Assembly (NCBI RefSeq): GCF_001192835.1
Contig: NZ_DF968182.1
Location: forward strand, 905,748 to 969,747
Length of the DNA: 64,000 nucleotides
Direction of reading: 5' to 3'
DNA from: Lentimicrobium saccharophilum
GTDB taxonomy: Bacteria > Bacteroidota > Bacteroidia > Bacteroidales > Lentimicrobiaceae
The stretch's first letter is position 1. Each line of letters opens with the position of its first letter. This document shows positions 53,768-54,408 of the stretch, piece after piece. Made by a program: the position numbers and the translations under genes. The notes beneath the pieces were generated by a model. It was not told the origin of the DNA and ran no database searches. It saw nothing but the letters and a program-made list of their open reading frames with translations.

Positions 53768-53944
53768 GACTTTTATTTTGTATTATTAACAGTTTTCGGT
53801 TGGCAATGTTGGAAAGGCCTCAATTCAAGATAATTTATTTTTGAAGTGCGTTCGTTTAAAGGTTTTAATACATTTAGTAGTGGTTAACAATAAAAGTCAA
53901 ATTTTTAAAATCGAATCTTAAGTTCTTGGTTAATCCTGAAAATG

Positions 53945-53973
53945 AAAAAAGCTCCCTTTTGAGGAGCTTTTTG
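53945..53973 (-). repeat. Downstream copy of the 29-bp terminator repeat
   Basis: Identical in all 29 bases to 54306-54334. Minus-strand hairpin arms AAGCTCC and GGAGCTT with a CAAAA-type loop, then T6. It follows the tRNA-like remnant just as the other copy follows tRNA-Asp. Confidence 0.9.
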
Positions 53974-54061
53974 TCTCGTCAAACAGCCTGTTTGACGAGA
54001 GACGGGATTCGAACCCGTCTTGTCACGTTGAAAAGACGTGACGAGATGACAGGCCCTTATT
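53974..54061 (-). pseudogene. Degenerate tRNA-like remnant, related in part to tRNA-Asp
   Basis: Minus strand. The T arm is intact (GACGGGTTCGAATCCCGTC, 54001-54019). Just before it are a 7-base stem with a CTTTTCA loop (54022-54042), like an anticodon arm, and, further 5', GGCCTGTCA at 54046-54054. This and GGTTAGAATA (54057-54066) also occur in the intact tRNA-Asp at 54335. After the T arm comes a near-perfect 27-base palindrome (53974-54000). No 5' acceptor strand or D arm is found at the expected place, so I read it as a broken or chimeric copy, not as a working tRNA. It starts next to the stop of the GIY-YIG gene. Confidence 0.6.
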
Positions 54062-54301
54062 CTAACCATTCACAAGTAGTTCAATTGACCTGCGATTGAG
54101 CGATTTTAATCTTCGTTCTCCAATAAGTGCTTCTCTTTTTGAAGGAAAGCCTTTCAAATAGACCAGTTCCCATGGCCCTTTTCCACTTGTAAACCGGCTT
54201 TTATTGTTGTTGTGTTCCCACAACCTCTGATCAGGATTTTCAGTTATCCCTTTGTAGTAAATTTTGAAGACAGCAGAATAGAGAATGTAAGTATAATACA
54301 T
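54062..54301 (-). CDS. Small GIY-YIG nuclease (UPF0213-like)
   Basis: 79 residues with the GIY-YIG pattern: YYTYILYS (GIY strand), FKIYYKGITENPDQRLWEHN (YKG in place of YIG, with Arg26 and His30), and GERRLKSLN near the C-terminus, where Glu62 is the likely metal ligand. It is a free-standing catalytic domain with no DNA-binding extension. The ATG follows the terminator of tRNA-Asp by 4 bases and no promoter box is seen, so it may be made only by read-through. The stop TAG is part of a tRNA-Asp-like sequence, GGTTAGAATA, so the gene end is fused to tRNA-derived DNA. Confidence 0.85.
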   Translation of the reverse strand: MYYTYILYSAVFKIYYKGITENPDQRLWEHNNNKSRFTSGKGPWELVYLKGFPSKREALIGERRLKSLNRRSIELLVNG

Positions 54302-54305
54302 AATT

Positions 54306-54334
54306 AAAAAAGCTCCCTTTTGAGGAGCTTTTTG
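54306..54334 (-). repeat. Upstream copy of the 29-bp terminator repeat, after tRNA-Asp
   Basis: Minus-strand hairpin (arms AAGCTCC and GGAGCTT) with T6, starting right after the discriminator base of tRNA-Asp. Identical to 53945-53973; the two copies are 361 bases apart. Confidence 0.9.
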
Positions 54335-54408
54335 CGGTCCGGACGGGACTCGAACCCGCGACCCCGTGCGTGACAGGCACGTATTCTAACCAACTGAACT
54401 ACCGGACC
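54335..54408 (-). tRNA. tRNA-Asp (GTC)
   Basis: 74 bases on the minus strand. Acceptor GGTCCGG pairs with CCGGACC, D arm GTTCAGTTGGTTAGAAT, anticodon stem CGTGC/GCACG with loop CTGTCAC (anticodon GTC), and T arm CGGGTTCGAGTCCCG. The discriminator is G and no CCA is encoded, so CCA must be added after transcription. A strong promoter lies 34 bases upstream. Confidence 0.97.

Follow-up and report, generated by a model that had tools for sequence, protein, structure and literature searches.

A short GIY-YIG nuclease gene lodged in tRNA genes of Bacteroidota: a candidate homing-like, tRNA-restoring selfish element

In this study, we asked why a GIY-YIG nuclease gene of Lentimicrobium saccharophilum lies between an intact tRNA-Asp gene and a broken second copy of the same tRNA, and whether this arrangement is a minimal mobile unit. 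Short GIY-YIG genes of this kind are at present presumably filed simply as GIY-YIG family proteins. The window, i.e. the whole stretch of 64 kb that was analysed, contains the following parts of the locus, listed from high to low coordinates:

54334..54408, minus strand: intact tRNA-Asp gene, anticodon gtc (ARAGORN; Rfam RF00005, 67.9 bits)
54302..54334, minus strand: terminator copy 1 (33-nt direct repeat D1)
54062..54301, minus strand: GIY-YIG nuclease gene, 79 aa (ORF list; PF01541, 60.6 bits)
54047..54068, minus strand: part of the tRNA-Asp copy, D loop to anticodon (22-nt repeat D2, 91%; overlaps the end of the ORF)
54018..54046, minus strand: junction palindrome H1, TCTCGTC type, 29 nt, one stem mismatch (placed by hand on the sequence)
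54001..54017, minus strand: T arm of the putatively displaced tRNA-Asp half (17-nt repeat D3, 94%)
53974..54000, minus strand: palindrome H2, perfect, 27 nt, 13-bp stem (inverted repeat I1)
53941..53973, minus strand: terminator copy 2 (33-nt repeat D1)

The tRNA-Asp(gtc) gene is the sole tRNA gene detected by ARAGORN in the window and also its sole Rfam match at the gathering score (67.9 bits), and the ORF from 54301 to 54062 scored 60.6 bits against Pfam PF01541 (cut-off 22.6). A preliminary description of the locus had listed the intact tRNA-Asp, the 79-residue GIY-YIG gene and two terminator copies 361 nt apart, all of which are present on the minus strand. It had also placed the stop codon of the nuclease gene inside GGTTAGAATA, and this TAG indeed lies there, as part of GGTTAG in the D arm of the tRNA copy. 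Its degenerate tRNA-like segment is real and is, more specifically, a copy of tRNA-Asp: the intact tRNA and the remnant share a repeat from the D arm to the anticodon (22 nt, 91%, spacing 324) and a second one in the T arm (17 nt, 94%, spacing 341), and the terminator copies at 54302-54334 and 53941-53973 agree to 97% over 33 nt (spacing 361). Missed at that stage were the junction palindromes, the most unusual feature of the locus. In the tRNA-Asp copy, H1 replaces 12 nt past the anticodon (29 in, 12 out) and H2 replaces the acceptor 3′ end (27 in, 7 out), thereby explaining the repeat spacings exactly (324 + 17 = 341 for H1, 341 + 20 = 361 for H2). The pattern TCTCGTCN{1,25}GACGAGA occurs once in the window (53974-54000), with 0.00 occurrences expected from 100 shuffles. 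Because the 27-nt palindrome at 53974-54000 stands where the acceptor end belongs, the second terminator has no tRNA 3′ end next to it, and the earlier statement that both repeats abut one holds for the first. Since the ORF begins one base past the terminator repeat, expression of the nuclease at a low level by read-through of the tRNA terminator is possible.

The locus is one copy of an element that is widespread in Bacteroidota. The closest relatives found are Lentimicrobium MAGs, the protein of one of them (L005) being 87% identical. Four GIY-YIG matches including the window copy were found in the source genome, among them a tandem nuclease pair after tRNA-Val with a TCCCGG palindrome (L002/L003) and a longer GIY-YIG protein with no tRNA found nearby (L004). 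An early set of 123 distinct hits, a biased sample seeded by the window protein and other queries, comprised 64 loci in which the intact tRNA lies upstream and its second copy downstream, 13 with the mirror layout and 46 with neither, a second tRNA copy being called if its alignment score exceeded the best of 100 shuffles by more than 4. Since these loci were seeded from the window protein, 158 Bacteroidota genomes were drawn and searched by profile. A nuclease match (E up to 1e-8) was found in 100 of them, with 22 copies in one genome. Among the best matches listed, this draw provided 114 distinct copies on 90 fetched stretches (window included), three of 117 rows being duplicates. Among these matches listed, a tRNA on the same strand lies within 600 nt of 91 of the 114 copies, and no copy has one on the opposite strand within 400 nt, the association expected by chance being about 1% as estimated from one tRNA per 64-kb window. 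A second copy of the same tRNA was detected across the nuclease gene in 82 of these 114 listed copies (78 partial, 4 near full length), and the remnant lies downstream in 63, upstream in 19 and on neither side in 32. The sample covers 12 tRNA isotypes. Loci without a recognised remnant (32 of 114 and 46 of 123) are situated near a contig or stretch end in 9 and 14 cases, respectively. The mirror layout, in which a displaced 5′ half, a hairpin, the nuclease gene and the intact tRNA follow each other, was first met in L031, L032, L044 and L045; the MAGs with this layout belong to CPR, Omnitrophota and Nitrospiraceae, and L040 looks similar by eye with a value below the score.

A comparison of related genomes for the GIY-YIG family beside tRNA genes and for empty sites had been proposed before. 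The association was found, empty sites are present in relatives, and thus the outcome named as speaking against mobility, a lack of any empty site, did not occur. Strong matches to tRNA-Asp were obtained in 15 of 19 genomes of the same genus. Six of these are occupied at tRNA-Asp (G000, G005, G011, G012, G013, G018), seven have no element after it (G004, G006, G008, G009, G014, G016, G017), and G002 and G010 end too soon past the tRNA to be classified. In G006, tRNA-Asp and its terminator are followed by the gene that is found beyond the element in the window and that we take to be carbonic anhydrase-like. The upstream flank of the empty site in G004 is nearly the same as that of the occupied site in G013, and by eye a short stretch resembling the ORF start is retained in G004, which looks like decay. 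In G009, contig C62 carries, at ~80.5 kb (L136, L154), a nuclease copy and a palindrome-marked tRNA-Asp remnant with no intact tRNA adjoining, and the intact tRNA-Asp is located ~8.5 kb away on the same contig; units can therefore separate from their tRNA. Copies far from any tRNA, the other outcome named against mobility, do exist, e.g. L054 in G009, as a minority.

In Flavobacterium, 13 of 37 loci are occupied at tRNA-Asp, 12 of the 13 coming from genomes picked for occupancy. For the comparison, 12 occupied and 13 empty loci of the 37 were used, while occupied L199 and eleven loci with a single or differently arranged tRNA-Asp were omitted. The best pair (L176/L184) differs by a 387-bp insert inside the tRNA-Asp gene, from T arm to T arm, with 458 identical, 34 mismatched and 16 gap positions after the insert and 245, 30 and 50 before the tRNA. 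Three further pairs with inserts of 377-386 bp are in agreement. In all four pairs, the terminator that follows the remnant agrees with the one at the empty site, whereas the one that follows the intact tRNA is distinctly unlike it in three; the exception is L170/L189, where it is close to that of the empty site (51 identical, 6 mismatched). Because the terminator after the tRNA is unlike the empty site and the stretch after the remnant agrees with it, supply of a new 3′ half by the element is the best reading in three pairs, the test of polarity being partial since the terminator in L170/L189 is near that of the empty site and the terminators in the window are alike. With the polarity from Flavobacterium, the tRNA-Asp of the window would be a hybrid of a native 5′ part and an element-supplied 3′ part, and terminator copy 2 would be the native terminator, displaced by insertion; within the window itself the native terminator is not assignable because both copies are too alike. 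The broken tRNA copy is thus better read as the displaced native half. Insertion beside the tRNA by duplication of its 3′ flank, as suggested in the preliminary description, gives way to probable insertion inside the tRNA gene with supply of a replacement half. Second palindromes comparable to H2 were also seen in Flavobacterium, and nuclease and remnant are missing together from the empty sites. Gain and loss look alike in occupied and empty pairs, as recombination across the repeated tRNA sequence would remove the unit and produce an identical empty site; we infer gain rather than loss of the element and, likewise, which half is element-borne outside Flavobacterium.

Palindromes of the types TCTCG, TCCCG, CACGC, CCTGCC and others stand at the junctions, and six families were scored. 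A palindrome of these families was detected beside 93 of 150 ORFs (regions of 160-180 nt), compared to 8 of 715 control windows (160 nt), and none at 57 of the 150 loci. For 70 of 94 palindromes, both edges could be positioned on the tRNA; at the window locus the scripted placement picked H2, and H1 was set by hand. Among these 70, the palindrome replaces the anticodon arm in 30, distributed over 10 isotypes (edges within 2 nt; 25 exact), and the 12 nt after the anticodon in 16, all of them tRNA-Asp and 15 of the TCTCG type, which is also the position of H1. In 10 cases 8 nt of the T arm are replaced, and in three the palindrome is inserted in the D loop without loss. The pieces replaced appear to be mostly tRNA arms or loops. 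By eye, clean insertions into the D loop were seen at the tRNA-Arg loci L112, L113, L119 and L130. Palindromes of the CCTGCCTGCC type stand in the D loop of 5′ copies of tRNA-Arg or tRNA-Leu before GIY-YIG genes (L112, L113, L119, L130, L260; L078, L120), in L078 and L120 as an inverted-repeat pair around ~30 unrelated bases.

The palindrome family tracks the nuclease lineage, with 13 changes compared to 37.8 after shuffling and to 24.2 after shuffling within isotype (0 of 500 as low), which would fit co-inheritance or recognition. TCTCGTC palindromes were found at 36 sites in the genus, two of which were left unread, and by eye 30 of the other 34 lie within tRNA copies (Asp, Gly, Arg, Thr), many of these sites having no nuclease gene. 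Palindromes of the TCCCG type are common also away from tRNA genes, and TCCCGA..TCGGGA was found at 41 sites in the source genome (control 1). Confinement of the palindromes to tRNA genes was therefore rejected for the TCCCG type, and it is largely true for TCTCGTC in the genus. The density of TCCCGA palindromes correlated with the nuclease copy number in 158 genomes (Spearman 0.42; reversed-pattern control -0.14; within-family permutation p 0.004), a correlation that follows in part trivially from the palindromes carried by the elements, that is absent in some families and that is not relied on here.

Repeated units and dispersed sites were also observed. At L143 (1501-1903; C1:2148163-2148565 of the source genome), four tandem 126-bp units follow tRNA-Thr(cgt) with no nuclease gene, each consisting of the palindrome TCTCGTCGCGCAAAGCGTGACGAGA, a tRNA 3′ part and a terminator. 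At L149 (838-1000; C2:178637-178799 of the source genome), three ~71-bp units, each a tRNA-Gly 5′ part with a TCTCGTC palindrome, directly precede an intact tRNA-Gly(ccc), again with no nuclease gene. Dispersed TCCCGA..TCGGGA sites, e.g. L296 and L308, have another repeated context, which is ACTCAGAAGAACAC-like.

The nuclease is under purifying selection. Its catalytic residues Y16, G18, R26, H30, E62 and K66 are retained in 148-150 of 150 proteins, the median dN/dS was 0.097 in 52 of 55 Flavobacterium pairs (those with dS above 0.05), and the window protein and L005 differ with dN 0.073 and dS 0.725. In one occupied Flavobacterium copy (L023/L176), the nuclease is broken by an early stop codon, a decay as expected of a selfish gene. 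PF01541 is the only domain matched, covering residues 1-71 of 79 without a separate DNA-binding domain, and an AlphaFold2 model of the protein (mean pLDDT 96.4) shows a compact single domain. A separate DNA-binding domain is usual in free-standing GIY-YIG homing endonucleases and not strictly required. The closest matches in a profile search of PDB sequences were UPF0213 (1zg2, E 7.6e-16) and SLX1 (7cq2, E 7.5e-8), and Foldseek returned the same structures with E 2.2e-5 and 9.9e-4, respectively; by sequence profile and predicted fold, the protein resembles UPF0213/SLX1-like GIY-YIG nucleases. Action on hairpins or cruciforms is plausible, since the nearest solved relatives include SLX1, a structure-specific nuclease of branched DNA.

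A lineage tree was built from 150 distinct proteins, leaving out those below 60 aa or with more than one inner stop. In this tree, which is short (86 columns in a like tree) and includes near-copies, the nuclease lineages cluster by tRNA isotype with 39 changes compared to 103.8 after shuffling (0 of 200 as low). Among 76 nucleases, no pair from different isotypes exceeds 60% identity, and isotype jumps are therefore old or rare. Such isotype-bound lineages would fit a homing enzyme with its expected specificity. Phages and plasmids were rejected as carriers, as the window protein has distant matches only, in 12 of 50,697 phage records and 2 of 72,556 plasmid records (E up to 1e-3). With regard to the SegB subfamily, the protein gave just one weak hit, limited to residues 5-39, to phrog_3312 'endonuclease' (E 2.8e-4). 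Distant GIY-YIG relatives (matches H3-H12) were seen in large Rhizobium phages, e.g. MN988525 107623-107823.

With moderate confidence, we read these observations as a homing-like, tRNA-restoring selfish element living in tRNA genes. The earlier idea of a minimal tRNA-linked mobile unit with the nuclease as its only protein is well supported by the same-strand tRNA association, the occupied and empty sites, the kept catalytic residues and the median dN/dS near 0.1. The element would be inserted inside a tRNA gene, in the region of the D, anticodon or T arm depending on the lineage. In the common layout, its left end would bring a replacement tRNA 3′ half and a terminator, whereby the host tRNA would be rebuilt at once; next would come the GIY-YIG gene, a short tRNA 5′ piece and the palindrome, and last the native 3′ half, displaced together with its terminator. 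In the mirror layout, found in CPR, other phyla and some Bacteroidota, the order would start with the displaced 5′ half and the palindrome, and the element would bring a new 5′ half. For its movement, we infer that the nuclease, a bare SLX1/UPF0213-type GIY-YIG domain, would break an unoccupied tRNA gene, and that repair from an occupied copy, with tRNA sequence on both sides as homology arms, would copy the element in. A palindrome in the place of an arm would protect the displaced copy from cutting or from maturing into a bad tRNA, and it may be the recognition structure of the nuclease itself. The restored tRNA half would make the insertion harmless. A puzzle for homing is how the intact tRNA, which still carries the presumed target, would escape cutting. 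Also counting against this reading are the loci without a recognised remnant, the 57 loci lacking a palindrome of the six families and the TCCCG palindromes away from tRNA genes.

The replacement of tRNA arms by palindromes may also be read with the nuclease as a hairpin-exchanging enzyme, which we consider possible though rather unlikely. Acting on stem-loop DNA, it would swap an arm of a tRNA gene for the palindrome of its own lineage, and a tRNA half would be duplicated to keep the host alive. The true mobile unit would then be the ~16-30-bp palindrome, movable in trans without the gene. If so, a palindromic element family would owe its mobility to a GIY-YIG nuclease rather than to a Y1 transposase, and tRNA genes would be among the main landing sites of palindromes.

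Tandem duplication of a tRNA gene, with decay of one copy, landing of palindromes in it and a GIY-YIG repair-type gene (UPF0213/SLX1-like) kept alongside, would do without selfish movement. Equal-size tandem units as in L249 (three, 317 bp apart), palindrome units without a nuclease and the near-full-length second tRNA copies in 4 of 82 loci are as such duplication would give, the last also counting against the element reading, and purifying selection would fit a host function as well. This explanation is nevertheless unlikely, as order and strand are repeated across the 12 isotypes of a single sample, the tRNA copy starts ahead of the last base of the ORF stop codon in 35 of the 64 early loci with a downstream copy, nuclease and remnant are absent together from empty sites, and the terminator after the intact tRNA is unlike that of the empty site in three of the four Flavobacterium pairs.

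Quite unlikely, in our assessment, is that the palindromes are REP-like and were moved into tRNA copies by HUH Y1 (RAYT/IS200-type) transposases, with the GIY-YIG gene as a separate rider. Y1 transposases (PF01797) are encoded in all 11 genomes checked, and both the genome-wide TCCCGA palindromes and the units without a nuclease would agree with such movers. However, 20 Y1 stretches (of 55 matches; 37,420 bases) contain a single TCCCG match and nothing of the five remaining families, compared to 16 matches to the same patterns in the 64 kb of the window, and several Y1 genes adjoin other hairpins. Also against it are the tracking of nuclease lineage by palindrome type within isotype and the position of the TCTCGTC palindromes within tRNA copies. 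REP/RAYT was therefore rejected as palindrome mover and is kept as a rival because Y1 proteins may act in trans. A regulatory or RNA device, in which the partial tRNA would be recognised by RNase P/Z or by toxins that cleave tRNA, as a signal for processing or as a decoy, and RNA would be the substrate of the nuclease, would be in line with a displaced half that reaches the last 10 nt of the tRNA in 46 of 64 early loci and with palindromes in the place of the anticodon arm (30 of 70), which would preserve a tRNA-like shape, and is very improbable given that the usual layout lacks one acceptor strand and allows no mature tRNA shape, that terminators stand before and after the window unit, that mirror layouts retain opposite halves and that Rfam revealed no other known RNA family in the window.

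If these loci are selfish, tRNA-invading and tRNA-rebuilding elements, few self-sufficient mobile units would be smaller; the elements would account for a class of partial tRNA copies and would provide a simple system for studying how a nuclease targets an essential gene without host death. The junction palindrome makes it testable which enzymes move short palindromic repeats.

Several known systems can be compared with this tRNA-restoring element. Genomic islands and ICEs that integrate at tRNA genes restore the tRNA 3′ end and use integrases. In contrast, the inserts described here are below 400 bp (377-387 bp in the four Flavobacterium pairs) and contain one GIY-YIG ORF, and an island of the integrase type was rejected since the ORF list of the window has no integrase in the unit. 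REP elements with RAYT are short dispersed palindromes that also occur without a protein gene. The present units differ in having no Y1 transposase, and beyond one match their palindromes were not found by the Y1 genes (20 of 55 examined). The Y1 genes L320, L332 and L329 are flanked by their own hairpins (CTCCGTCC.., CATCAGGC.. and TCATCTGC.., respectively) and may represent REP/RAYT pairs of Bacteroidota. In profile and predicted fold (1zg2, 7cq2), the nuclease is like UPF0213 (BH0048, EF2693) and SLX1, whereas SLX1 chains are longer and bind SLX4 according to the structure titles. To our knowledge, there are no tRNA-linked mobile units among UPF0213/SLX1 nucleases.

Group I introns in tRNA anticodon loops likewise have a tRNA target, and some carry homing endonucleases (see also PMC3984707). 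Such an intron was rejected here, because no Rfam intron match was obtained at the gathering score and the tRNA is intact in the DNA and not split. The passages covered of a 2006 survey of the GIY-YIG superfamily (PMC1564403) make no mention of such elements. The part covered of the searched literature, which includes few subscription journals and no preprints, contained no description of this arrangement in bacterial chromosomes, and three of the palindromes, searched as text, had no match in it. As in free-standing GIY-YIG homing endonucleases, the catalytic residues are kept, the gene lies outside introns and inteins, and occupied and empty alleles exist; the separate DNA-binding domain usual among them is absent.

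The closest functional precedent is SegB of phages T4 and T6. As described in the covered part of the corresponding study (PMC13096335), it is a free-standing GIY-YIG homing endonuclease of the tRNA region with a wide isotype range, the 5′ end of tRNA-Tyr and the 3′ end of segB share microhomology, and the enzyme drives the tandem amplification of tRNA and nuclease genes. To the extent of that description, both systems have a GIY-YIG nuclease near tRNA genes of many isotypes. Unlike SegB, which belongs to phage genomes, the elements described here are chromosomal, their protein is little more than a catalytic domain, and the element would restore a tRNA half and carries a palindrome at the junction.
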